Of a DNA stretch of 64,000 nt, positions 1 through 21,537 are shown in pieces. Every line of letters starts with the position of its first letter. Within the stretch, counting starts at the first letter, position 1. This DNA is from a virus. Below the pieces are notes generated by a model. That model had not been told where the DNA came from. It was given only the letters and a program-made list of their open reading frames with translations, and ran no database searches. The translations under genes and the position numbers were made by a program. The stretch is taken from positions 18,145 to 82,144 of IMG/VR virus record IMGVR_UViG_3300008050_005857. One strand, 5' to 3'.

Positions 1-1
1 A

Positions 2-40
2 AGTAATTGCGAAGGTCTTAAAACAAGCGAAGTAACATAA
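2..40 (+). CDS. 3' end of an upstream gene (partial)
   Basis: An open frame enters from the left edge and stops at TAA 38-40, three bases before the tape-measure start. Only twelve codons are visible (ending S-E-V-T), so no family can be named. The tight spacing to the next gene fits the tail operon, but the frame is too short to prove coding. Confidence 0.35.
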   Translation, partial: SNCEGLKTSEVT

Positions 41-43
41 CCA

Positions 44-3000
44 ATGCCTGCTGCTAAAAAAGGTAAAGGTCCTAACAAACCGCCTAAACAACAAAGCACT
101 AGTAAGGTGTGGCGGGAATCAATAAAGGCCGCTGGCGAATCTGAAAAAGCATGGAAAAAAGCTGAGAAAGCTGCTGAAAGTGGGGAAAAAGCTAAAATAG
201 CTGCTGCTAAAGCAGCAAAAGCTGCGTGGGATCAATCTATACAAACCTCTAAAGAGGCTAGAAAAGAATACTTCGTAGCTAGAAAATACGCAAATACCTT
301 TTATAATGAAGTTATGGCCGGAGCCAAAGCAATTGCCGATCAAGGCGGTGAGTTTGGTAAACTAACTGGAAAAGCCAAAAAAACCTGGGCATCTGCCGGT
401 GCAGCCGCACAAAAATATTATCAGAATGGTGATAAAGCTAATTTAAAATCAATGCGAGTTCTGAAGGACGTTGAAGACAAATTGAATTCAGCTCAAAATG
501 ATAAATCACAACTTACCGCTGCAAATCTTGCACTATTAGAAGCAGAAATTTTAACTAAAGATCAAATACTCCAATTAGATAAGGAAGATCAAGCTACTGC
601 TGAAAAAATTGTAGAAGTTCAAAAAGATAAGCTTGCTATTTTAAAACGAGAAGCAAAGTTACAAGACAAAATAAACGATGCTAAAACAGAAGGCCTAAAT
701 ATGGTTGAAAAAATGAAACAAGGCTTCCATAATTTAATGTCAGTTCAGGGCCTATTGTTGGCCGGTGTAACTGCACTTATTGCAGTATTAAAACAAGGCA
801 TTGTAAACACGAAGGCGATTAATACTCAATTAGGTGTAGGTGTTGCATCTTCTGCGGCAATGGCAAAAAATCTAGCATTTGCCGCTCCACTTGCAGCAGC
901 AGCTGGTTTCAGTGAAGAAATGTCATCTGCGGCAGCAAACGCAGCTTTAGTCTCAGGTAATCTAGATTTAGCAAAGAATGCCGCTATCGCAGTTAGCGAT
1001 GCAGCAATAGCTTTTCAGACTGGAATGGAGCCAGAACAAGTTGCTCAACTAGCAGAAAATTTAGCAATAACAACAGACCTATCAAGAGAAGGCGCTTCAG
1101 CAATGTTAGGATCAGTAGCATCTTTAGCTGAAATGAATAAAGTTGCACCTAAAAAGGTCTTAGAAGATTTAGCGAACAATGCAGAATCAATGGCAAAATT
1201 TACGGATGGAAGTGCAGAGAGCTTAGCTAAAGCAGCAGTTCAAGCCGCAAGACTTGGCATTGAACTTTCAAAATCTGCTGCTATCGGTGATAAGTTACTC
1301 GATCTTGAAGAATCTATTGCATCAGAATTTGAAGCATCTGTATTAATCGGGAAAGAATTAAATTATGATAGAGCTAGACAATTAGCTCTAAATAATGATA
1401 TTGAAGGTGCCGTTGGCGAAATTGTGAATCAATTAGGTTCTGAAGCAGAATTTAATAAAATGAACGCAATACAGAGACAGGCACTTGCAGATTCAATCGG
1501 TGTCGGCGTTGAGGATTTAGCGTCAATGGTTTCTAAACGTGGCAAAGCAGATTTAGATACAGGTAGCGATGTCCCGGCGAAACAATTAAAAACGCAAATG
1601 GATCTTGTCAAACAAGGTTATATTATGAGTGGTAAAGCAGAAGAGCATTTGGATTTATTAGGTAATATACTTTCTGCAATTATAGCTCTTGGTGCTGGCC
1701 AATTACTCGGTAAACTCACCGGTAGAATGGGAAAAGGAATAGGACGAGCAGTTACGAACATGTTAAGTAGAGGAAAAGCAGGAGCTAGACTCGCAAGAAT
1801 GAGCGGCGGAGGAAAATTTGCGCGCGCTAGAGGTATGATTCGAGGTGCTGCAGGCTCTGGTTTAGGTAAAGCTGTAGGAATTGCAGGAGCAGCTATTGAA
1901 GGATTTAAAGCGTTTGGTAATTTGAAAAAAGGTTTCTTTGACAAAGGTGTTCCTGAAGCTGAAAGAAATGAAGCCCGAGGTGCAGGTGTTGGTGGCGCTG
2001 CTGGACTTGCGATCGGTGCAGTATTAGGCGGTCCAATCGGTGCTGCAATAGGAGGTTTTGTCGGTAGAAAACTTGGCGGATATATGGGTAAGAATTGGAA
2101 GAGTATCAAAAAATTTGGTAAAAATTTAGGTGCTCTAACGAAAAAAGGATTCATAGCAGGTGTAAAAGGAATTAAAGCATACTACGGCGGAATATATGAT
2201 TTAGGTAAAAAAGGATTTGAAAAAGGTAAAGAAATATTAGGAGAGTTTGGACCTAAAGTAGTTGATATGGGTAAAAAGATTGGTGGATTTGGATTGAAAA
2301 TTCTTAAAACTGCAACACCAATTGGATTAGCTCAAAAAGCAATTGCTGGACTTAAAGATAATATGCCAGCAATCAAAGAAGGTTTATCAAAAGCACGAGA
2401 TACTTTTGTTAACGTGGCAAATTCTATAGGTGAGAAAGTCGGTTCAGGTTTAAAGACTGCAAAGGACAAATTTGTTAGCGTGGCAAATTCTATAGGTGAG
2501 AAAGTCGGTTCAGGTTTAATGGCTGCAAAGAACAAAGCTAACGAATTCAAAGAAAACGTTAAACAAAAATTCTCATCGGCTATCAACACTGCAAAAAGTA
2601 AAATGGCTGAATTAAGTTCAGCTACACACGAAGCTTTAGTTACGAAATTTCAAAGCGTAAAAACAAAAGTTCAGGAAGTTGCAAATGCTTTACCTGGACT
2701 AATTTCTGGAGCATTAAGTAAAGCTGGAGCTCTTCATGCGGCATTTGTTGAAAATGGCGGTTTAGTGGGCGCAGCAACTGATGCATGGAAGTTCGGGAAG
2801 GAATTTGTCTTTGGAAAAGAAAAACAAAAAGAAAAAGGTGGCCCAATTACTAAGTCAGGTACGTATCTTGTAGGTGAAGCAGGTCCTGAATTGGTTAATC
2901 TCTCTGCTGGATCCCATGTTGTTCCAAATAATAAACTACAAGGAGGTTTAGAACAAGGACAATACGGTGAAGTAGACCTTGAACCTTTAGTTGCAGCAAT

Positions 3001-3094
3001 AATGAGTTTAAAAACTGAATTACAGCAAATTAAAGGACATACTAAAAATACCTCAAAAGGCGTTTCTAATATTTCAATAGGGAGTACAACGTAA
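44..3094 (+). CDS. Tail tape-measure-like protein
   Basis: Probable tape measure protein, which sets tail length and passes through the tail tube during DNA entry. The 1016-residue product starts with about 230 residues of Lys/Ala/Glu-rich coiled coil. A hydrophobic stretch follows near 235-255, then a long Gly/Ala-rich section near 560-700 with further hydrophobic runs. Near residue 943 it carries GEAGPELVNL followed by a Pro-Asn-containing end, a C-terminal signature common in tape measure proteins. A 22-residue tandem repeat lies near residues 788-831. The stop overlaps the next start (TAATG). Assignment rests on architecture, the C-terminal motif and baseplate-like neighbours. A large internal virion protein is the alternative. 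Confidence 0.75.
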   Translation: MPAAKKGKGPNKPPKQQSTSKVWRESIKAAGESEKAWKKAEKAAESGEKAKIAAAKAAKAAWDQSIQTSKEARKEYFVARKYANTFYNEVMAGAKAIADQGGEFGKLTGKAKKTWASAGAAAQKYYQNGDKANLKSMRVLKDVEDKLNSAQNDKSQLTAANLALLEAEILTKDQILQLDKEDQATAEKIVEVQKDKLAILKREAKLQDKINDAKTEGLNMVEKMKQGFHNLMSVQGLLLAGVTALIAVLKQGIVNTKAINTQLGVGVASSAAMAKNLAFAAPLAAAAGFSEEMSSAAANAALVSGNLDLAKNAAIAVSDAAIAFQTGMEPEQVAQLAENLAITTDLSREGASAMLGSVASLAEMNKVAPKKVLEDLANNAESMAKFTDGSAESLAKAAVQAARLGIELSKSAAIGDKLLDLEESIASEFEASVLIGKELNYDRARQLALNNDIEGAVGEIVNQLGSEAEFNKMNAIQRQALADSIGVGVEDLASMVSKRGKADLDTGSDVPAKQLKTQMDLVKQGYIMSGKAEEHLDLLGNILSAIIALGAGQLLGKLTGRMGKGIGRAVTNMLSRGKAGARLARMSGGGKFARARGMIRGAAGSGLGKAVGIAGAAIEGFKAFGNLKKGFFDKGVPEAERNEARGAGVGGAAGLAIGAVLGGPIGAAIGGFVGRKLGGYMGKNWKSIKKFGKNLGALTKKGFIAGVKGIKAYYGGIYDLGKKGFEKGKEILGEFGPKVVDMGKKIGGFGLKILKTATPIGLAQKAIAGLKDNMPAIKEGLSKARDTFVNVANSIGEKVGSGLKTAKDKFVSVANSIGEKVGSGLMAAKNKANEFKENVKQKFSSAINTAKSKMAELSSATHEALVTKFQSVKTKVQEVANALPGLISGALSKAGALHAAFVENGGLVGAATDAWKFGKEFVFGKEKQKEKGGPITKSGTYLVGEAGPELVNLSAGSHVVPNNKLQGGLEQGQYGEVDLEPLVAAIMSLKTELQQIKGHTKNTSKGVSNISIGSTT
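2405..2536 (+). repeat. Tandem 66-bp duplication inside the tape measure gene
   Basis: Two adjacent 66-bp units (about 2405-2470 and 2471-2536) are nearly identical in DNA, not only in protein. Each encodes a 22-residue block containing VANSIGEKVGSGL. The frame is kept. Near-identity of the DNA points to a recent in-frame duplication, which in a tape measure gene would be expected to lengthen the tail slightly. Confidence 0.9.
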
Positions 3095-6000
3095 TGGCAT
3101 TAAAGGATTTCAACGCAAGTAAAATTAAAAGTTGGACATACCATGATACGTCTGCGAAAGAGCCACAAACATTTGATGACATCCATTCAGGTACTATCGT
3201 CACTGGACAAAGAGACAAAATTGAAGAGCAATATATGGAAGGTCTGAAAACAACTCAGGATGTATCCGCCTATGACATACAATCTGATCCTCCATCAGCC
3301 CAAACTTTTCAAGCAGGTACATATACGGTCACCGGTATTCGGGATTTAATTGAGGCGAAATTTTTAGAAGGTAATCCATTAACAAGTAAAAATAACGCTA
3401 CTACATTAGATGACGTAATCGGTTTTAAACCTGATACGGGACAAACATATAACGTTGGTCCCTACACTGTTACAGGTGATAAAACAAAAATAGAAACACT
3501 ATTAGATTCATTTGAAGCGGATCCGTTACAATATGTGGATTCATTGGCTGGATATAGTCAAGTTGTTGATCAAATTGATAGTGCGAACCCACAAATCTTT
3601 ACTATATCAAACAGTGCCGGAGAATATTCAATAACAGGTTTACATGGTTCTATTGTATTTGATGATTTAGATGATTTAAAAACAAAAAGTCTAGTTATAA
3701 AAACACTTGGTGATAAAATAGAATCTGCAACAATGCGTTCATGGGCTGCACCAGATGTTAATAGTGCACAAAAAGGGTGGAGACAGGTTCCAATTGGACT
3801 TAGAGATTTTGGAACAGGTGAACTTGATTCAACTCCAATTAAACTTGGTGGAGATGCGACATTCCCAGGGTTTACAGTATATCCTAAAACACCGCAATGG
3901 GCCCAATCTGTAACGGAAAACTATACAGATATTATAACAACAAATAGTTTTTATGGCAGATTCACTGGAAAATTATCTTCGCTCGCACTCGATAATCCAT
4001 CAGGTGGAGATTCCGTATTAGGTAACCCGTTTACGTCTGTTGATACACTATTTGGTTTATCAGCCGGCTTTTATTTAGGCATCCGCGGGATAACGTTAGG
4101 TAATATTTTAGGTAAACCTCAATATACTAAGCATACAACTATTTACGGGTATGATGAAAGTGGAGTTACAGGTGAAGCAGCTTTAGTAGAACCTGATGAA
4201 TGGGATGGTCAAAGTGACTTTGATCGCGATGAAATGCCAAAAATGATGTATCTGTATGATAAGTTCATTCTTGGACCCGATACAGTAGACGACCCACATG
4301 TGGAAGCTTACCAGTTTAAAGCCGGTCATTTAGGTTTTTCAAAAGACGCATTGCAAGGTGCATCAAATTTCGCAGCTGCTGGTGCAAGTTTCGTTATGAA
4401 CTGGATTCTTAGTTCATTTGATGAAAAATATCCTATAATTCCTACAAGGAATCAAGTTAATATGAAGGGTGCCGGCAAAGATTACTTGTCTCAAACTAGC
4501 ACAAAATATTTTGATTCTTCAAATGATAAAGCTTCAAGTGATACAAGCAAATCCGTTCCATCTTTAGCAACCATTGTATTAAACAGAGATGATTCACCGT
4601 TTATTTCACAGACTTTTCTTGATGCATCTGGAACTGATCCGTCAAAGCTTGAAGACGCAGACTTAAAAAATAAACCTTTATTAGTAACCTTATATAAAAA
4701 ATTAATACTAGATGGCAGTCAAATACTTGGTGATGAATATAAAACATTATTTGATAAATCTGCACATAAAAGCATGTTTCCAAATTCATCGGTATTACCA
4801 CAACATCCTCAAGGTGGAACAGCACAAGGTAAAGCATATACAGATTCTCAAAAATATGTTTCACAAGCCGAAAAACCTAGAACATATCAAGGCGATAAAG
4901 CAACAATAGCTGGAGGAGATAATCCATTTTTATTTTATTCAAAACACTCCACAACAAATTTACGATATGACGTAGACGGCGATACAGAATTATCATCAAG
5001 ATATGATACAAGTGAATTCGCAAAACATGAGGTTCTTAAAGGTTTTATTGCAACTGGAAGCTTAGACCATACGAAACCTATGAAAAGTAAACTTGTTGAT
5101 AAAATTGAAAATGATATCACATCGCCACTTGGCTTTACAGATGATGATTCAGCAGGTAAAATTCCAATCGTTGGACGTAAAAAATTAACAGAAAAGGGTC
5201 ATGCATTACCATATGACAAACTTGGAAAAGAAAAAAATAGAAAATATGGTGAAATATTAATGAGCCCAAGTGAATTCGCGGCGGTTGAAGAACTTCCAAC
5301 TGAAGTAGCTGGACTAGTTAAATTAAACGAGAATAAACAACTAGATATGACCAGTACAGAACCTAAATTTGCTAGAAATGAAGGAGCTAAAAAAGTTTAT
5401 AACATTGGAAAAAATGGTTTTGTTAAAATAGATCCGGCCAGTACACAGACAACCTCTGTATACGATGATGCACTTGGGTTAGTCAAATTAAGTGGTGATG
5501 GTGATAACAAGTATAAAACAGATCACATTGATAAAGTTAATATGGTTGCTTACCGGAATTCTGAGGATGATCATAGCGTTGGAACATATGAAGACTTAGA
5601 TTTTGTGCCATTAGTATTTCAAGATGTTTACAATGAAAAGGATATAGTATTTAGGGCTATCCTTGGTGCTATAGAAGATAAACATACCCCAGATTGGGAA
5701 GAACAGAGTTTTATCGGCAGACCAGTAAAGAGTCATGTATATAAAGGAGTCGATAGAGAAATAAGTTTTGACTTTAAAGTTTATCCTAAAACAAAACAAG
5801 AATTTCCTGTTTTGCTAGAAAAAGTAAATTATCTTTCAGGGTTAGCATATCCAAATTTAGATCAATATTATAGAATGTCTGGACCATTATGTAAATTAAC
5901 ACTTGGAGATATCTGTAAACGTCAATTAGGCTTCTTAAGTGATATTAGTGTTACATTTCCTGAAGACAGTCCTTGGGAAATTCAAAAAGGATTAAGATTT

Positions 6001-11460: not shown

Positions 11461-13667
11461 TGATACCAAAAAAATATAAAACTATGATAGCTGATGCACT
11501 AACTAGAGCATCTTATCGTACAAAAAATGGAATGATAGATCTATCAAACGATTTAGATTTATTCATAGTTGTTGAAGAATTACGTAAAGAATTTTCGGAA
11601 GATATAATTCAAAAAGCGTTATTTATTGAAATTTCTCAAAATGATGATGATTATACAAATATTGGCGGTTCTGGTTATGTATTGACAAAAGCTCTCCCAG
11701 ATGATTGGGACCAAGAAAAAGATGGTATCCCTTCTGATGCTCAACGGTTCACTAAAGGTAAAGATGGAAAATATAGTTCTTCAGGAAAGGAGAAGAAGGT
11801 GAAGGCTACATCACAAGCTTTAAGCCCACAGGATTTTCCAGAAATGGGAGACGAGGGTAAACCTGACGTTGATCCAAAACAAGTTGAAAAAGATAAGAAA
11901 AAAGCCGAAAAATTAGAAAGAGAAACAGAAGCTAAAAAAGAAGTTGTTAAAACTGAAACGAGTGGAACACTTGACCAGGTAGCATGGGAAAACGATACAG
12001 ATCAAGAAGAGTTTCAAACTGCATTTGATAAACTCGTCAATGGTGAAGAGCTCACTGAAGAAGAACTAGCAATGATAAATAAATATGCAGCCGTAAAAGA
12101 CAGCGATAGTGAAGCTGCCCTTTATTTGCCAAATCAAACGCCAGGTGATTTTAGACAAGGAGCAAGGGTTAAAGTAGAATTGGGAGGCAGTGCGGCAGCA
12201 AAAAGAGTATTGGCTCAAATGGTTGAAAATGGAATCCAAACTGCAGATCCTGTTACAACAGCTGAATCAGTACCAGCGAAATTGAAAACAAAAGATGCTA
12301 CATTAGGTAAAATATCGGGTGGAAAAACAAAATCACATACAATAACAACTGAAAAAGATAAAGACGGTAGGGTTATTTCTGTAACAGTTGCAGGTAAGGT
12401 TATGCGAAGGCAGCTTGAGCCTGATGCTGATGTACTCATTAAAGAAGTTGTTGAAATGATTGATCAAGGGAAATCTCCCGAAGACGCTGCACGTGAAGCG
12501 CAAAAAATCCTTGCTGGAATAAAACGATACAATAATTTAATTGATAAGTACGCATCTGCAGATCCTGCAGTAATGGAAACAGTTGAACTCGTCCCAGGCG
12601 CGGATGTATCTACACCAGAAGGAAGAAATAGAGTTGCTTCAGAAGGTCCAGGCATAGTAGCGGATGCATTAGAAAAAATGATAGATGACCCTACTGAAGC
12701 TGAACGGAAAGTACTTGATAGGATCAGAAAATTAGGTGATATTGAAGACGCAGAAGAATATGAACGTGAAGCCATGGCTATTTTAAAACGTATGGGTGAA
12801 ATTTCATCTATTAAAAAAGGAGCTCCTGATGTTGCTGAAGCATTAGTATTATGCGCAATGAATAAAAAGGGTATACCAACTGTAGCGCCAGCAGGAGAAA
12901 CTTTTAAGGTTGCAGATTTAATACAATTAGCTGAAGAAGATCTAGATCCTACAGATCCGGAATATTTACAAAAATTAGCAGCTGGTGGACCAGTTGTAGT
13001 ATTTATGACAACTGCTGGTGGATTAAGTGTTAAAAAAGATGGCGGCGCTGCATCAGGGTTTGAAGCAAAATTAGGAATGACAACGTTTAAGCTTCCTGAA
13101 ACAAAAAACATGCTAACAGCAATTTTAGACCACCACAATCATGGCATTGCAACTACAAAGAAGGGTGAAGAGTTATCTCCAACAAGAATAGCGACAGCAA
13201 AAAAGAAATTAGATGAAGTTGAAAAATGGGCCAGAGAAAATGATTTAGTTGATGATAACGATTTAAAATTTAAAGATGGTAGATCACCGGAAGAATGGGC
13301 AACTGATAGCGTTGCGGATTGGCAAGCAAAAGGTACATTACCACCAGATTGTCCAACAAAAAACGCTAAAGGTGAGTGCCTATCGGACGATAATAAGAAG
13401 AATTTGATCGACGGTCTTCACCAATACGCTCGGGGCGGGTTACTAGCTCAAGCAATTCACAATAACGATTTAGATTTCCAAGATTATCATAACGCAAACG
13501 CAAATACTAGAACTGGTGAAATTGAACTTAGTGATGGAATTGAGTGTTTAAATGATATGCAATTTTCTGCTAATCCAGGCTTTAAAATGAAAAAAGATAA
13601 AAACGGAAATTTTATAATGCGACCTAACGCTGTTTATGCCGGTAATTTACACAAGCGCTGCAGATGA
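11460..13667 (+). CDS. Acidic 735-residue protein of unknown function
   Basis: Coupled by TAATG to the polymerase-like gene. The product is rich in Glu, Asp, Lys and Ala, with a charged linker at about 100-180 and no membrane segment. The C-terminal 120 residues contain several Cys (C-P-T-K-N-A-K-G-E-C and a C-L-N-D block) and Asn/His-rich segments, and look like a separate folded domain. No family is recognised. Its place between tail genes and replication genes does not fix a function; a virion or DNA-metabolism role is possible. Confidence 0.7.
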   Translation: MIPKKYKTMIADALTRASYRTKNGMIDLSNDLDLFIVVEELRKEFSEDIIQKALFIEISQNDDDYTNIGGSGYVLTKALPDDWDQEKDGIPSDAQRFTKGKDGKYSSSGKEKKVKATSQALSPQDFPEMGDEGKPDVDPKQVEKDKKKAEKLERETEAKKEVVKTETSGTLDQVAWENDTDQEEFQTAFDKLVNGEELTEEELAMINKYAAVKDSDSEAALYLPNQTPGDFRQGARVKVELGGSAAAKRVLAQMVENGIQTADPVTTAESVPAKLKTKDATLGKISGGKTKSHTITTEKDKDGRVISVTVAGKVMRRQLEPDADVLIKEVVEMIDQGKSPEDAAREAQKILAGIKRYNNLIDKYASADPAVMETVELVPGADVSTPEGRNRVASEGPGIVADALEKMIDDPTEAERKVLDRIRKLGDIEDAEEYEREAMAILKRMGEISSIKKGAPDVAEALVLCAMNKKGIPTVAPAGETFKVADLIQLAEEDLDPTDPEYLQKLAAGGPVVVFMTTAGGLSVKKDGGAASGFEAKLGMTTFKLPETKNMLTAILDHHNHGIATTKKGEELSPTRIATAKKKLDEVEKWARENDLVDDNDLKFKDGRSPEEWATDSVADWQAKGTLPPDCPTKNAKGECLSDDNKKNLIDGLHQYARGGLLAQAIHNNDLDFQDYHNANANTRTGEIELSDGIECLNDMQFSANPGFKMKKDKNGNFIMRPNAVYAGNLHKRCR

Positions 13668-13687
13668 TTAAACTAAAAGGCATATTA

Positions 13688-14065
13688 ATGGAAGATAAGA
13701 TTGTGGATACCGCCGGTATAATAGTACGTTCAGATGCCGGCATTATTTTATGTAAAGAAAGAAATAGTGATTATCAATGGGGAATTCCAAAGGGTAAAGT
13801 TGACCCAGGTGAAACACCGATACATGCGGCATGCCGTGAGACGCTTGAAGAAGCTTCAATATTAGTTAAAGTAAATGGAAGCCATTTAAACACACCGGTC
13901 GAGGAAGTTAAAATTGCAAAAAATTCTAGAGGAGGTAAGTTTTTTATCTATGAATGCACTTTAAAACTATCAATAATACCAAATAAAAGTTTAGAACACG
14001 ATGAAGTAAAATATTTTAGAAACCTTCCAGAAAATATTGACACACGATTAGAAGGATTATTATAA
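13688..14065 (+). CDS. Nudix hydrolase
   Basis: A MutT/Nudix hydrolase that would cleave nucleoside diphosphates linked to another moiety, for housecleaning or nucleotide-pool control. The Nudix box GKVDPGETPIHAACRETLEE is intact apart from Ser in the final Gly position. ATG 13688 is preferred because AAAAGG lies seven bases upstream. An in-frame ATG at 13664 overlaps the previous stop but has no Shine-Dalgarno and would add eight residues. The gene ends in TAATG with the next gene. The exact substrate cannot be read from sequence. Confidence 0.88.
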   Translation: MEDKIVDTAGIIVRSDAGIILCKERNSDYQWGIPKGKVDPGETPIHAACRETLEEASILVKVNGSHLNTPVEEVKIAKNSRGGKFFIYECTLKLSIIPNKSLEHDEVKYFRNLPENIDTRLEGLL

Positions 14066-14454
14066 TGAAAACACAATTACTATGCACTTTTTGCGTAAAA
14101 CACGAATTTGACACAACTGTTGACCTAATATCTTTAGCTGCAAACGTTGTATTTAATAAAATATATGCGTTTGAAAATCTAGACGATCCTCAGCAAATAA
14201 TTTGTACTTATAATGTAGAAAAATTGGATGACTTTGTTCAAAACAATAAAACAATGGCGATCCACCGGAAAAAAGAAACTAATACTTTATATACTATAAA
14301 TGCTTTAAATGAAGCAATTCGTGAGAATAATGATGGAGTATTAGATAAGTCTTTTTCTTTAGACTGGTCAATGTATCAAAACAGTTTACTTCTTACGAAC
14401 GATAAAGGTCTTAACGTTGTAAAAACAAAATTATATAAAATTGTAAACGTCTAG
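14065..14454 (+). CDS. Conserved-looking phage protein, function unknown
   Basis: A 129-residue soluble protein coupled to the Nudix gene by TAATG. It opens with TQLLCTFCVKHEFD, and the two early Cys are spaced CTFC, so metal binding is possible. The centre contains AIHRKKETNTLYTINALN. No domain with known function is recognised. It lies directly before the selenoprotein-like gene, with eight bases between them. Confidence 0.7.
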   Translation: MKTQLLCTFCVKHEFDTTVDLISLAANVVFNKIYAFENLDDPQQIICTYNVEKLDDFVQNNKTMAIHRKKETNTLYTINALNEAIRENNDGVLDKSFSLDWSMYQNSLLLTNDKGLNVVKTKLYKIVNV

Positions 14455-14462
14455 GACCTCCC

Positions 14463-14696
14463 ATGGAAATTTCAATCGAATATTGTATGCAATGAAATTA
14501 CGAGCCACGAGCCTTCAGGTTGAGGGACGAACTTGGAATTAAATATCCGAATATTGATGATTTTGATATGATACAATCAAAGGGCGGAGTATTCGAAATT
14601 AAACAAATAAACTCATCTAGCGATGAAATATTGCTATTTAGTAAAATTGCCACAGGAAGATTTCCACATCAAGATGAAATAAAAATAAAGTTATAA
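14463..14696 (+). CDS. SelW/Rdx-family protein with in-frame TGA (candidate selenoprotein)
   Basis: Reading through TGA 14493-14495 gives a 77-residue protein of the Rdx (SelW/SelT/SelH) thioredoxin-like family. The redox motif is Cys8-Met-Gln-TGA11, so the stop sits exactly at the Sec/Cys position of the family CxxU/CxxC motif. It is preceded by ISIEY and followed by YEPRA. Downstream, KGGVFEI and LFSKIATGRFP match the second half of the family. AGGA lies six bases before the ATG. A nonsense mutation of a Cys codon is the alternative, but the rest of the frame is intact. Normal stop decoding would leave ten residues. Confidence 0.75.
14496..14529 (+). promoter_or_regulatory. Candidate SECIS-like hairpin after the in-frame TGA
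   Basis: Immediately 3' of TGA 14493-14495, CCTT (14512-14515) can pair with GAGG (14522-14525) around a CAGGTT apical loop. GC/GC pairs below it follow a small internal loop. Bacterial SECIS elements lie within about 40 bases of the UGA and present a conserved G-containing apical loop to SelB. The loop here starts 21 bases after the TGA. The stem is short, so this is suggestive only. Confidence 0.35.
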
Positions 14697-14808: not shown

Positions 14809-15036
14809 ATGGGATTGGCCGAACAATGAGTGGATGAAGAAGCTCATAAGGCAATCTACCTTCAGATCTATAGTGGATCGGTATTCGGGCAAAATGCACA
14901 ATATCTTACGACAGTATTGAGGGCTAATGTACTTCTAGAAAAACTTAAAGAACAGCGATTCTTTGACCTTGTTGTGGGTAAGGGTAATACCGAAATCCCA
15001 CCAAGCTGGCTGAATAATCCAAACTTAGAGGGATAA
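14809..15036 (+). CDS. Small ORF interrupted by TGA, or GTG-started 68-residue protein
   Basis: AGAGGAG lies about 13 bases before ATG 14809, which opens M-G-L-A-E-Q and then meets TGA at 14827-14829. The same frame continues from GTG 14830 for 68 residues to TAA 15034-15036 (LTTVLRANVLLEKLKEQ, then a Pro-containing end), which looks like real protein. Options are a short leader with re-initiation at the adjacent GTG, UGA recoding as in the gene 330 bases upstream, or a nonsense mutation. No family is recognised, and no redox Cys flanks this TGA. Base composition is richer in GC than neighbouring genes. Confidence 0.4.
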
Positions 15037-15184
15037 GGCTCCTAACAGAGGTTGTGCTCGCTCAAATGTAAGGTAACACTTATGAGGAGAATCGACTTAA
15101 CCGTCGGGGAAAGGGAACAAGGTAGAAAAATCTAAGCTAGAAGTTGTAGTGTAATCGCAAATCCTACATCCTACCAAATAATTC
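15037..15184. other. Non-coding stretch of atypical composition
   Basis: This stretch between the TGA-interrupted ORF and the SSB promoter has no convincing ORF. It is less AT-rich than its surroundings and contains short pairable segments (GGTAG near 15119 with CTACC near 15170). It does not fold into a tRNA by eye. It may be an RNA leader or a gene remnant; no function is assigned. Confidence 0.3.
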
Positions 15185-16069: not shown

Positions 16070-17176
16070 ATGCCTAAAAAGAACAAAGATTCATTGGCGG
16101 TTGATTTAGCGGCTTCATTGAATAGTAAATTTAAAGGTCAAAAAGTTGCGTATTTCTTAGATGGAAAACACCAAACACCTACAGATGTAACAGACTTTAT
16201 CTCAACCGGTTCATCAATGCTAGATTTAGCAATATCTAATCAAGCGGATGGTGGAATAGCCGTAGGAAGAATTACAGAAATTAACGGTTTATCTTCAACA
16301 GGTAAATCTTTATTAGGTGCACACATACTTGCTGAAACACAAAAGAACGATGGTGTTGCCGTTTATATTGATACTGAAACATCTGTAAGTCGACAATTTT
16401 TAGAAGCCATTGGATGTGATATTCCAAATTTACTTTATCTTCATATTGAAACAGTAGAACAAATTTTTCAAGCAATAGAAGATATTATTTTAAAAGTTAG
16501 AGAGTCTGATAAAGACAAACAGGTTACAATTCTTGTAGATAGTTTAGCTGCAGCATCAACTGATGTCGAAATGGAATCAGATTACGGTAAAGACGGTTGG
16601 GCAACAACCAAAGCTCTTATTGTTTCAAAAGCTCTACGAAAACTTACACAGCTAATTGGACGACACAAAATTACTTTAGTTTTTACAAATCAATTAAGAC
16701 AAAAATTAGGTGTTATGTTCGGTGATCCATATACTACAAGTGGTGGACTTGCTTTACCATTTCATTCGTCAACGCGTATCAGACTTAAAAATATGGGCCA
16801 GATAAAAGATAAAGAAAAAAATGTTATCGGTGTTAAATGTAGAGCTCAAATTATTAAAAATAGAATTGGACCTCCAATGAGAACTGCGGATTATGACATG
16901 TATTTCGATCGTGGCATTGATGATGAAGGTGGATGGTTACAAGTTTTAAAAGGATTAGGCTACGCTAAAAGTAGTGGAGCATGGTGGACAATTGACTATA
17001 AAGGTGAACTTAAAAAATTCATGTCTAAAGATTTTGTCGAAATGCTAAATGATGATTCTGAATTTAAACAATATCTTTACGAGCTAATATGCAGTGAATC
17101 TATCCTCGAATATCAAGAACAACGAGGAATAGATGACGTTGAATTCACAGATGAAGTGATCAACGAAGATGCGTAA
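16070..17176 (+). CDS. uvsX: UvsX/RecA-like recombinase
   Basis: A 368-residue RecA-fold ATPase that would drive strand exchange in recombination-dependent replication and repair. Walker A is GLSSTGKS at 73-80. Walker B is TILVDSLAAAS near 157-167. A segment with VFTNQLRQ and G-L-A-L-P-F-H-S-S matches the recombinase core. It lies between the gp32-like and FEN-like genes, as expected for T4-type replication clusters. A GGGG-containing ribosome site precedes the ATG. The 3' end overlaps the next gene by eight bases. Confidence 0.9.
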   Translation: MPKKNKDSLAVDLAASLNSKFKGQKVAYFLDGKHQTPTDVTDFISTGSSMLDLAISNQADGGIAVGRITEINGLSSTGKSLLGAHILAETQKNDGVAVYIDTETSVSRQFLEAIGCDIPNLLYLHIETVEQIFQAIEDIILKVRESDKDKQVTILVDSLAAASTDVEMESDYGKDGWATTKALIVSKALRKLTQLIGRHKITLVFTNQLRQKLGVMFGDPYTTSGGLALPFHSSTRIRLKNMGQIKDKEKNVIGVKCRAQIIKNRIGPPMRTADYDMYFDRGIDDEGGWLQVLKGLGYAKSSGAWWTIDYKGELKKFMSKDFVEMLNDDSEFKQYLYELICSESILEYQEQRGIDDVEFTDEVINEDA

Positions 17177-18182
17177 GCGATATGCCGACATTTTAAAACA
17201 AATCAATTCGACAGTTAACGTCACATCTACATTAGATGATCATGTTTTACTTGTTGATGGTTTGAATAACTTCATCCGGGCTTGGTCTGCTTCCCCTGCG
17301 ACCAACTCGGATGGAGATCATATTGGTGGAATGCTTGGCTTCTTACAAAGTGTTGGATTAGCAATTCGGACTATCCGACCAACAAGAGTCATCATTGCTT
17401 TTGATGGTCCTGGTGGAAGTCAACGAAGACGTAAAATCTATCCAGGTTATAAAGATAAACGAAAACCGCCAAAACGTCCTCATAGATTTAGGGAAATGGA
17501 TAATGAAGATGATCAAGAAAGTCTAAGTAGACAGATAAAACGATTAGGCGAATACCTCCAAAATCTTCCACTAACTTCAGTAACAATACCAAATATCGAA
17601 GCAGACGATACTATTGGCTACATAGCAAAGTCTCTTCTCAGTAATTCTAAGATAACTATAATGTCTTCGGATAAAGATTTTTTACAATTAGTCGATGACA
17701 GAATAACCGTATGGTCTCCGACTAAAAAAATCTTATTTGATAGAGCAAAAACAGAATCTGAGTATGAAATGCTTTCAGAGAATTTAGTATATTATAGAAT
17801 TATCGATGGAGACAAGTCTGATAATATTCCAGGTATAAAGGGTTACGGATTAAAAACAATACTAAAAAAAGTGCCATTTTTGAAAGATACGAAAATAACT
17901 AATATTAGTGACTTTATTGTAAATTCCGGACTAACATTGCATAAAGAGCTATTAGAAAGAAATTATACACTAATGCAGTTACATGACGTAAATATATCAG
18001 GAAATGCAAAATCAAACATAATGGAAATAGTCTCTGCACAGCCAAGCAGATTAGTGAAATATAAGTTGCATACAATGTTTTTAGAAGATAAAATTAATCA
18101 ATCAATTCGAAATCCGGATGTATGGCTTCAAGATACTTTTAACGCGTTAGACTTAGTGATCGCAAATGCCTCCAGTAATTGA
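17169..18182 (+). CDS. FEN/5'-3' exonuclease (T4 RNase H-like)
   Basis: A 337-residue member of the 5' nuclease superfamily that would remove RNA primers and flaps on the lagging strand. Visible signatures are LLVDGLNNFIRAW, IIAFDGPGGSQRRRKIYPGY, the acidic metal-site motif IEADDTIGYI, SSDKDFLQLVDD and the helix-hairpin-helix block GDKSDNIPGIKGYG. The start lies inside the end of uvsX, and the 3' end overlaps the helicase gene by 17 bases, so the three genes form one translational unit. Confidence 0.9.
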   Translation: MRKRYADILKQINSTVNVTSTLDDHVLLVDGLNNFIRAWSASPATNSDGDHIGGMLGFLQSVGLAIRTIRPTRVIIAFDGPGGSQRRRKIYPGYKDKRKPPKRPHRFREMDNEDDQESLSRQIKRLGEYLQNLPLTSVTIPNIEADDTIGYIAKSLLSNSKITIMSSDKDFLQLVDDRITVWSPTKKILFDRAKTESEYEMLSENLVYYRIIDGDKSDNIPGIKGYGLKTILKKVPFLKDTKITNISDFIVNSGLTLHKELLERNYTLMQLHDVNISGNAKSNIMEIVSAQPSRLVKYKLHTMFLEDKINQSIRNPDVWLQDTFNALDLVIANASSN

Positions 18183-19545
18183 TTCATTACAAAAATTTGG
18201 AACAGGATTCCAAACAAAGGTTATAACGTGTATTCTTGTAGACGAAGAGTTTATACAAACAATTTATGATATGATTCAACCTGAACAACTTGATACTGAA
18301 GCTAAGCAGTGGATTGTTCGAGAAATCAAATCATATTTTTATGAGTATAAACACGTCCCAACACTTGATAGTTTAAAAGTAAAATTAAATTCTGTTAAAA
18401 GTGAGATATTAAAAGAGGCAATAATAGACGAACTTCGTCAAGTTATGAAGTACGTTGAAGCAACCGATTTAGCATTTGTAAAGGATCAGACATTAGAATT
18501 TTGTAAAAATCAAGCACTTAAAGCCGCAATAATGCAATCAGTTGACCTGTTACATCAGCAACGATATGATGAAATAAAACGTGTAGTTGATAATGCATTA
18601 CGAGCTGGAACACGAAGAGATATAGGTTTAAATTATGTAAAAGATTTTGATACTATATTAGAAGATGTTTCAAGATTGACGGTAAGTACTGGCTGGGACG
18701 CTGTAGATGGTATTACAGATGGCGGTTTAGCAGGAGGTGAATTAGGAATCGTTGTTGCACCTTCTGGTGTTGGTAAAAGCTGGTTATTGCAAGCGCTAGG
18801 TGCGAATGCGTTAAGAGCCGGAAAAAATGTTATGCATTATACACTTGAATTAAATCAAGCGTATGTTGGTTTGAGATATGCGGCGATATTTTCTAAGCTT
18901 GAAACTTCACAAATTAAAGAGCAAAAAGATAAAGTCAAAAAAATGATTACAGATCAAGTTAAAGGTGAATTGCTCATTAAATATTGGCCTTCAAAATCCG
19001 CAACTGTACAGACCGTGTTTACACATCTAAAGACCGCGGAATTATTAGGCCATTCTCCAGATATAATACTATTAGATTATGCGGATTTACTAAATGATAC
19101 TTCAGGTCAAGGGGAAATCCGTCATCAGCTTGGAACAATTTATGAAGATTTACGAGGTTTAAGTGGAGAATTTAATGTTCCAATTTGGACCGCATCGCAA
19201 TCAAATCGTTCAAGTATTGATTCAGAAACAATTGGAGCTGAAAAAATCGCAGAATCTTATAATAAAATAATGACCGCGGATTTCGTAATGAGTTTATCTC
19301 GAAAAGTTGAAGATAAAATCGCAAATACCGGTAGAGTACATATAATTAAGAATAGATTCGGTCCCGATGGTTTAACATTTCCAACAACAATGAATACCTC
19401 TAATGGCCAAATAGACGTTTATGAAGCCGGCAGCGGTAGCGGTGTTCAAGTGCAAAATAAAATGAAAAATGGGAATGAATATGTTAGGAAATTACTTAAA
19501 AAACGTTATGATGAATTTGAAACTGTTATTAATGAACCCGATTAA
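18166..19545 (+). CDS. Replicative DnaB-type helicase (gp41-like)
   Basis: A 459-residue hexameric helicase of the DnaB/gp41 family that would unwind DNA at the fork. The N-terminal 150 residues form a helical domain. Walker A is APSGVGKS at 198-205. H-Y-T-L-E-L-N-Q follows, and the Walker B strand is IILLDYADLL with Asp304. TASQSNRSS near 340 matches the DnaB motif 3 region. It starts inside the end of the FEN gene. No separate primase gene is visible in this window. Confidence 0.9.
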   Translation: MPPVIDSLQKFGTGFQTKVITCILVDEEFIQTIYDMIQPEQLDTEAKQWIVREIKSYFYEYKHVPTLDSLKVKLNSVKSEILKEAIIDELRQVMKYVEATDLAFVKDQTLEFCKNQALKAAIMQSVDLLHQQRYDEIKRVVDNALRAGTRRDIGLNYVKDFDTILEDVSRLTVSTGWDAVDGITDGGLAGGELGIVVAPSGVGKSWLLQALGANALRAGKNVMHYTLELNQAYVGLRYAAIFSKLETSQIKEQKDKVKKMITDQVKGELLIKYWPSKSATVQTVFTHLKTAELLGHSPDIILLDYADLLNDTSGQGEIRHQLGTIYEDLRGLSGEFNVPIWTASQSNRSSIDSETIGAEKIAESYNKIMTADFVMSLSRKVEDKIANTGRVHIIKNRFGPDGLTFPTTMNTSNGQIDVYEAGSGSGVQVQNKMKNGNEYVRKLLKKRYDEFETVINEPD

Positions 19546-19563: not shown

Positions 19564-21537
19564 ATGAATGAAAAATTTACGTTGTCACTTGGGTTTATAG
19601 ATAAGTACAAAAGAAAAAAACCACCATTCGGATTTAATGGATTAGGAGAGTTAGTTTATATGCGGACCTATTCTCGCATAAAAGATGACGGTAAAAATGA
19701 AATGTGGTGGGAAACTATTCAACGAGTTGTAGAAGGCACATATTCTATGCAAAAAAGTTGGATTGACCAACATCAACTTGGTTGGAATCCTTGGCAAGCA
19801 CAAGCGTCTGCTCAAGAAATGTATGACAGAATGTTTAACATGAAGTTTTTACCTCCTGGTCGGGGGTTATGGGCGATGGGAACCGCGATAACAGAAGAAA
19901 AGAATCTTTACGCAGCGCTTAATAATTGTGCATTTGTATCTACAAAAACACTAAAAGAAGATCACGCAAAACCGTTTTGTTTTTTGATGGATGCGTCAAT
20001 GTTAGGTGTAGGGGTCGGTTTTGATACAAAAGGTGCCGGCGAGATAATGATAAAAGGTATCGCGACTAACAGAGATGTACAACAGTATGAAATACCAGAT
20101 ACTCGTGAGGGGTGGGTAGATTCTGTTAGAATTCTATTAGAAAGTTATTTCCATGGAACTGCTCCAATTGAATTTGATTATACAAAAATAAGACCTGCAG
20201 GAATTCCAATTAAAGGTTTTGGAGGACAGTCAAGTGGACCGGATCCGTTAAAAGAAGTTCATGAAAAAATCCGGATAACTTTAGAAACCAATACTGGAGA
20301 TCCAATTACAATAACTACAATCGTCAACATAATGAACCTTATTGGCAAGTGTGTAGTAGCAGGAAACGTAAGAAGAACTGCTGAGATCGTGTTTGGAGAT
20401 CCAGATTCTGAAGAATATCTAGATCTTAAAAATTATAAAGTTAATCCTGAGAGAGAAGAATTTGGATGGACGTCAAATAATTCTATATTTGCAGAACTTG
20501 GTATGGATTATACCGAATCAGCAAAAAGAATTATAGATAATGGTGAACCAGGATTCGCATGGTTAGAAAACATGAGAAAATATTCTCGCATGAAAAATGG
20601 TGGAGACAATAAAGATCATCGTGCTATGGGTGGTAATCCTTGTTTAGAGCAAACATTAGAGTCTTATGAATTATGTTGTCTTGTTGAAACTTTTCCAAAT
20701 AATCATGAGTCTTTGGATGATTATGCTAGAACATTAAAATACGCATATTTGTATGCAAAAACCGTCACTCTTGGTAAAACACAGTGGTCTGAAACAAATC
20801 GTGTAATGTTAAGAGATCGAAGAATAGGATGTTCAGTGAGTGGCGTTGCTCAATTTATCACCAATCACGGTTTAGGAGAATTAAAGACTTGGTTAAATTC
20901 TGGATATGACGTTATACAAGAATGGGACAAAATGTATTCTGATTGGTTTGCAGTACCACGTTCAATCAAAACTACATCTGTTAAACCTAGCGGTACAGTT
21001 TCACTCCTCGCGGGAGCAACACCTGGATTACATTACCCAGAAAGTCGATTCTATATACGAAGGATCCGATTAGGAATCAATTCAGAATTAATTATGCCAC
21101 TAGAAAAAGCCGGATATAAAATAGAACCCGCATTCGGTTCAGAATCTACTACAGTTGTTGTTGAAGTTCCAGTCGATGCCGGTCAAGGTATCAGAACAGT
21201 TAATGACTTATCTATTTGGGAACAATTCAGTTTAGCTGCATTTATGCAAAGACATTGGGCCGATAATCAGGTGAGCTGCACAGTCACATTTGATCCTAAA
21301 ACAGAAGGCGTAGAATTACCTCAAGCATTAACTTACTTTCAATATCATTTAAAAGGAATCAGTTGTTTACCGAAACATGATTCTGGTGCTTATCGTCAAA
21401 TGCCGTATGAAGAAATAGATAAAAAAACTTATAAAGGTATGCTTTTAAAATTAAAAAAATTAAGCTTTAGAAAAGTCAAAGGTAATGAGGCTATTGTTGA
21501 AAAATTTTGCGATGGAGATACGTGTGAACTTGAATAA
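19564..21537 (+). CDS. Class II (adenosylcobalamin-dependent) ribonucleotide reductase
   Basis: A monomeric class II ribonucleoside-triphosphate reductase of 657 residues that would make dNTPs with a B12 cofactor and without an oxygen-dependent partner subunit. LPPGRGLWAMGT and LNNCAFVSTK hold the first active-site Cys. GNPCLEQTLESYELC carries the N-x-C-x-E catalytic loop. TTSVKPSGTVSLLAGATPG is the phosphate-binding loop. The C-terminus has two Cys five apart (C-D-G-D-T-C), matching the thiol shuttle pair of the Lactobacillus type. AAGGAGAG precedes the ATG. No NrdA/NrdB genes are seen, so this is the phage's visible reductase. Confidence 0.92.
   Translation: MNEKFTLSLGFIDKYKRKKPPFGFNGLGELVYMRTYSRIKDDGKNEMWWETIQRVVEGTYSMQKSWIDQHQLGWNPWQAQASAQEMYDRMFNMKFLPPGRGLWAMGTAITEEKNLYAALNNCAFVSTKTLKEDHAKPFCFLMDASMLGVGVGFDTKGAGEIMIKGIATNRDVQQYEIPDTREGWVDSVRILLESYFHGTAPIEFDYTKIRPAGIPIKGFGGQSSGPDPLKEVHEKIRITLETNTGDPITITTIVNIMNLIGKCVVAGNVRRTAEIVFGDPDSEEYLDLKNYKVNPEREEFGWTSNNSIFAELGMDYTESAKRIIDNGEPGFAWLENMRKYSRMKNGGDNKDHRAMGGNPCLEQTLESYELCCLVETFPNNHESLDDYARTLKYAYLYAKTVTLGKTQWSETNRVMLRDRRIGCSVSGVAQFITNHGLGELKTWLNSGYDVIQEWDKMYSDWFAVPRSIKTTSVKPSGTVSLLAGATPGLHYPESRFYIRRIRLGINSELIMPLEKAGYKIEPAFGSESTTVVVEVPVDAGQGIRTVNDLSIWEQFSLAAFMQRHWADNQVSCTVTFDPKTEGVELPQALTYFQYHLKGISCLPKHDSGAYRQMPYEEIDKKTYKGMLLKLKKLSFRKVKGNEAIVEKFCDGDTCELE

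Follow-up and report, generated by a model that had tools for sequence, protein, structure and literature searches.

A gene with a 77-aa product in the 64,000-nt stretch of viral DNA analysed here (the window; the source virus record comprises 82,144 bp) is very probably, on comparative sequence evidence, a phage-encoded SelW/Rdx selenoprotein gene (selW, Table 1) in which selenocysteine (Sec) is inserted at a UGA codon. The open reading frame starts with ATG at 14463, contains one in-frame TGA (14493-14495) and ends with TAA (14694-14696); read and translated with TGA as U, its product is MEISIEYCMQUNYEPRAFRLRDELGIKYPNIDDFDMIQSKGGVFEIKQINSSSDEILLFSKIATGRFPHQDEIKIKL. The TGA occupies the place of the second Cys in the CxxC/CxxU motif of the family. 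Pfam Rdx (PF10262) matched residues 2-74 (E = 4.2e-17; 62.5 bits against a cut-off of 22.6), spanning both sides of the TGA, which bears out the first-pass annotation of a TGA at the second position of CxxU with family landmarks intact around it. The NCBIfam model TIGR02174 (CXXU_selWTH) gave 51.8 bits, above its curated cut-off of 34.2, and NF041051 (SelTWH of Campylobacterota) gave 76.4 bits, under its equivalog cut-off of 88, which leaves the protein outside that equivalog. The probability of 66 stop-free codons at this base composition is 0.0044, and a Pfam match spanning them excludes a chance open reading frame.

The structural model agreed with this family assignment. AlphaFold2, supplied with 13 sequences, returned a beta-alpha-beta-beta-beta-alpha fold (pLDDT 94) that is thioredoxin-like, with a strand at residues 2-8, a helix at 14-27 and the CxxU motif in the loop that follows the first strand. 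A structure search with this model retrieved 21 PDB chains at E ≤ 0.001, every one of them SelW/Rdx (query TM 0.73-0.81).

Homologues were sought with either Cys or TGA at the site, as had been proposed for checking the annotation, and all viral loci carried TGA while Cys forms lay on cellular contigs. Besides that of the window, 20 viral records have TGA at exactly this position; with the window included, they represent 13 distinct viral genes, most of which share 43-60% identity with the window's selW. A DNA pattern requiring TGA at this codon detected 14 viral contigs, all encoding a full-length SelW; with the codon left free, the pattern found 13 contigs and TGA in each. A profile-based scan yielded 19 loci, again all with TGA. 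In a paired pattern scan of viral contigs, the TGA version produced 20 matches (19 genuine) and the version with a Cys codon (TGY) none; the remaining match (L188) was rejected as a selW relative, being a chance match in which the hairpin described below is broken. The relatives on cellular contigs were distant, with Cys in 76 of 77 loci, a proportion that is biased and gives no estimate of frequency since one of the two patterns used requires Cys. The gene recurs in several lineages of marine phages. A second IMG/VR record (132,165 bp) represents this same phage, with 99.96% identity over the parts compared and no difference in the selW region over 900 bp, and therefore adds no independent evidence. 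No selW relative was found among the 50,697 deposited phage records of INPHARED, and PHROGs gave no match for the SelW family.

The first-pass annotation had placed a short hairpin with a GG-containing loop about 17 bases downstream of the TGA. Such a hairpin (CCTTCA-GGT-TGAGGG) starts 16 nt past the UGA, with its loop at 22 nt. Bacterial SECIS elements (bSECIS) have a loop of 3-9 nt, an (upper) stem of 4-16 bp, a G in the first two loop positions and a distance of 16-37 nt from the UGA (PMC13188914), and in the bSECIS check suggested at that stage the GGU loop, 6-bp stem and 22-nt spacing all lay within these rules. Across nine sequences, 96.3% of the alignment cells were paired and both sides had changed in four of the six pairs, and sliding the hairpin positions along the alignment lowered pairing to 26-56%. 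Because the hairpin stretch encodes a conserved PRAxxLR segment, we used a codon-preserving null, in which synonymous codons were re-drawn with phage codon usage while the protein was kept fixed (2000 draws). Over 13 sequences, 76 of 78 pairs were observed, whereas the null averaged 45 and never exceeded 57 (p < 1/2000). A broken pair lies inside the stem in L012, and another at the stem base in L007. For the window alone the same null gave p = 0.05-0.08, modest for a single copy, and plain folding of the 68 nt after its TGA gave no signal (z = -0.02), i.e. the hairpin stands out only in comparative and codon-preserving tests.

We also scanned the same phage records for homology bridging in-frame TGAs, removing antisense shadows and adjacent-gene artefacts by inspection. 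Most matches were rejected as selenoproteins, being antisense shadows of real genes, and two real families were left, selW and a thioredoxin-like protein with a W-U-P-S-C or W-U-G-P-C motif. The latter gene is found in four selW phages (G003, G007, G017 and G018) and five further viral records, always with TGA. A hairpin (CGGA-GGC-TCCG, or AGGA-GGC-TCCT in one copy) lies about 18 nt past its UGA, with p ≤ 0.015 against the codon-preserving null in seven of eight copies and p = 0.06 in the eighth. The encoded proteins contain AhpC-TSA/Redoxin domains, with a dockerin in some copies and a type IX secretion (T9SS) sorting tail in five records. This is the predicted second selenoprotein of these phages, secreted or exported. 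Two unrelated redox families with an active-site TGA in the same genomes strongly and independently support Sec.

Table 1. Coordinates of selW, its neighbours and related elements (window positions unless a locus is named).
Feature	Position	Strand	Evidence
Nudix hydrolase, conserved upstream neighbour	13664-14065	+	PF00293 1.6e-13; syntenic in L043 and L045
Conserved 129-aa protein directly upstream of selW	14065-14454	+	80% identical; same location in L043 and L045
selW-like (Rdx) selenoprotein gene (probable)	14463-14696	+	Pfam Rdx, TIGR02174, 13 distinct viral TGA genes, AlphaFold model with SelW-like PDB matches
Putative Sec codon TGA, second position of CxxU (Y-C-M-Q-U)	14493-14495	+	TGA in 13/13 viral loci with the codon left free
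Putative bacterial-type SECIS hairpin, 6-bp stem CCTTCA/TGAGGG, loop GGT (14518-14520)	14512-14526	+	Covariation; codon-preserving null
manA-like structured RNA between selW and gp32	14973-15177	+	RF01745 40.5 bits, E = 7.4e-9, sub-gathering
gp32-like ssDNA-binding protein (phage hallmark)	15257-16012	+	PF08804 4.5e-13; phrog_1192
UvsX-like recombinase	16070-17176	+	phrog_97 1.6e-71
DnaB-like replicative helicase	18166-19545	+	phrog_19 3.1e-69
Ribonucleotide reductase	19564-21537	+	phrog_367 2.7e-130
manA-like RNA in relatives	L018 629-824; L043 8487-8679; L045 8576-8744		RF01745
Trx-like UxxC selenoprotein genes (predicted)	L145 4358-5239; L152 8022-9005; L049 1767-2858; L158 near 19378 (-); L174-L181		

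Under the standard bacterial table (table 11) the selW frame ends after 10 codons, as expected if the TGA were a plain stop that left a degraded pseudogene or a 10-aa peptide. We regard this as very improbable, since all 13 distinct viral genes retain the TGA, the frame and the family landmarks through to the C-terminus, and their length differences preserve both the frame and a C-terminal RFP motif. The sequence 3' of the TGA is under purifying selection. Post-TGA codons gave pS 0.61 and pN 0.26 between the window and L018, and pS 0.61 and pN 0.16 between L043 and L010, typical pairs lying at pN of about 0.16-0.28 and pS of about 0.6-0.7. A pN well below pS is what the first-pass annotation expected of a codon that is read through, and the frameshifts or random substitutions after the TGA that it named as possible refutation occurred in none of the 13 genes. 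Alternative codes occur in some phages, and phage or host could in principle read TGA generally as Trp or another residue. However, TGA is the ordinary stop of 12 of the 47 window ORFs that reach 150 aa and of 17-19 in related records, and a stop so common elsewhere means that the code is not reassigned in these phages; moreover, the bridging scan left TGA only in selW and the Trx-like gene, at redox Cys positions in both, and homologues of SelW carry Cys, not Trp, at the site. We give this explanation practically no weight.

Insertion of Trp or Cys by a near-cognate tRNA, without selenium and with the hairpin acting merely as a stimulator of readthrough, is highly improbable in our judgement. 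A downstream hairpin could have such an effect and some of these phages encode their own tRNA-Cys, but the pattern scan found no viral contig with a Cys codon at the site, the hairpin geometry fits a bSECIS, and the occurrence of TGA at active-site positions in two unrelated redox families also speaks against it. Nor is there any appreciable chance that the contig stems from host DNA or from misassembly. All the records are metagenomic, and a further selW with TGA, besides those in viral records, lies on a contig of 4.6 kb that was binned with a SAR86 genome (L057, LUQU01000041.1). On the other side, tail genes and gp32, UvsX, DnaB and ribonucleotide reductase genes flank selW, with the same order in four diverged phages. 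The SAR86-binned contig is itself probably a phage fragment, because it has genes in common with other viral contigs and none of 61 genomes of the SAR86 order has selA, a count on which SAR86 was also rejected as host.

Sec insertion at the selW UGA remains the preferred reading, and the gene content classes the record as that of a tailed phage. In the window, selW is preceded by a tape-measure protein gene and followed by genes for gp32, UvsX, an exonuclease, DnaB, ribonucleotide reductase, thymidylate synthase and DNA polymerase. Four diverged phages share the location of selW ahead of gp32-UvsX-exonuclease-DnaB, and ribonucleotide reductase comes next in the three whose sequence reaches that far; the neighbouring genes are about 60-88% identical among the four. 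The 129-aa protein preceding selW had no match in Pfam or PHROG. All four phages of the window lineage have a manA-like RNA (RF01745) between selW and gp32, at scores of 37.6-49.8 bits that are all below the gathering score of 55.2. An ORF at 14809-15036 (MGLAEQ-TGA-VDEEAHKAIY...) was considered as another selenoprotein and rejected, having stops and indels in L018 and overlapping the manA-like RNA. The phage upstream region (L134 1-5800, G000 bases 1-5800) contains many partial repeats, roughly 73-99% alike by blastn, perhaps belonging to a repetitive tail or fibre gene.

In the mechanism we propose, a ribosome would reach the UGA at codon 11 of selW, the hairpin starting 16 nt downstream would recruit host SelB carrying Sec-tRNA-Sec, and Sec would be inserted before translation continued to the TAA. 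The product would be a small redox protein of thioredoxin fold whose active site is a C-x-x-U selenothiol. We infer that host SelA, SelB, SelD and tRNA-Sec serve selW. Neither SelB (17 phage records), tRNA-Sec (15 phage records) nor SelA (five viral records) was found, many of these records being fragments, and sub-threshold tRNA-Sec matches proved to be tRNA-Tyr, -Ala, -Cys and -Glu. As the phage records yielded no SelB or tRNA-Sec, host machinery is presumably used, and dependence of the phages on it is most likely. The presence of selW in several phage lineages, together with the second selenoprotein in four selW phages, makes it very probable that the hosts use selenocysteine.

The T9SS tails of the Trx-like protein suggest that the host is a relative of Bacteroidota. 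Typical Bacteroidota were rejected, as none of 198 genomes had SelA above the cut-off. Proteins with dockerin and T9SS parts are typical of Marinimicrobia/SAR406. For single-cell genomes of SAR406, selD is listed (PMC5029168), which makes Marinimicrobia/SAR406 our best guess for the host, at roughly even odds.

What SelW does biochemically in bacteria is poorly defined. Its biochemistry here is likely to be thiol/selenol redox exchange, and in infected cells it may keep reductases or phage enzymes reduced, or detoxify peroxide. The selW gene adjoins the replication and ribonucleotide reductase cluster in the window lineage, an arrangement not shared by the other selW phages, and this neighbourhood alone suggests, for this lineage, a possible link of SelW to ribonucleotide reductase. 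More tentatively, and as a possibility that we rate below an even chance, tailed phages infecting an abundant, T9SS-bearing marine lineage (Marinimicrobia/SAR406 or a similar one) might carry a recurrent selenoproteome of SelW and an exported Trx-like UxxC protein, and draw on the host selenium pathway as they infect; a substantial share of metagenomic marine SelW would then be viral.

The phage protein resembles the SelW/SelT/SelH family (PF10262; TIGR02174; NF041051) in fold, CxxU motif, length, family profile and an in-gene bacterial-type SECIS, but differs in being encoded by tailed phages, in scoring below the NF041051 cut-off and in having no Cys form in the viral set. Its putative SECIS shares with those of Escherichia coli fdhF and bacterial SelW a small stem-loop just after the UGA, a G opening the apical loop and a spacing in range, whereas the viral elements have a 3-nt loop, GGU or GUU, on a 6-bp stem. 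The glutathione peroxidases of molluscum contagiosum virus and fowlpox virus are likewise selenoproteins encoded by viruses and made with the Sec machinery of the host (PMC8310308), although these poxviruses are eukaryotic viruses and theirs is another protein family with a eukaryotic SECIS system. The second phage selenoprotein resembles marine Trx-like UxxC selenoproteins (GOS Trx-like 1; NCBIfam WAxxUGC_long and Omp28_seleno) in its W-U-P-S-C/W-U-G-P-C motif, AhpC-TSA/Redoxin and dockerin domains and type IX tail parts; unlike them it occurs in phage records, and it matches the equivalog models only partly and below cut-off.

The first-pass annotation knew of no well-described phage selenoprotein of this type, and our search of the open-access literature, with subscription papers and preprints outside its scope, likewise turned up no earlier description of phage selenoproteins. 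Poxvirus selenoproteins are the only ones from viruses that a recoding review names (PMC8310308), a 2026 review of prokaryotic selenoproteomes does not mention phage or virus (PMC13188914), and a marine trace-element study reports that viral sequences were scarce or absent in its other families, the selenoproteins among them (PMC9402790). Provisionally, then, a phage-encoded SelW selenoprotein is new to the literature. If the assignment is correct, selenocysteine insertion is one more host system on which phages depend, and selenium supply becomes a factor when phages infect some marine bacteria. Such genes would systematically escape phage annotation because of the TGA inside them, the cellular and viral shares of the selenoproteins in ocean metagenomes would have to be separated, and selenocysteine use would offer a clue to the host range of these phages.

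Outside the viral set, we detected an unannotated SelW with an in-frame TGA on a Cytobacillus spongiae plasmid (NZ_CP089998.1; L005 3001-3201), between selD and selA. Its SECIS-like hairpin (CCGCGA-GTT-TCGCGG) has the same architecture as the phage hairpin, with the pairs swapped.
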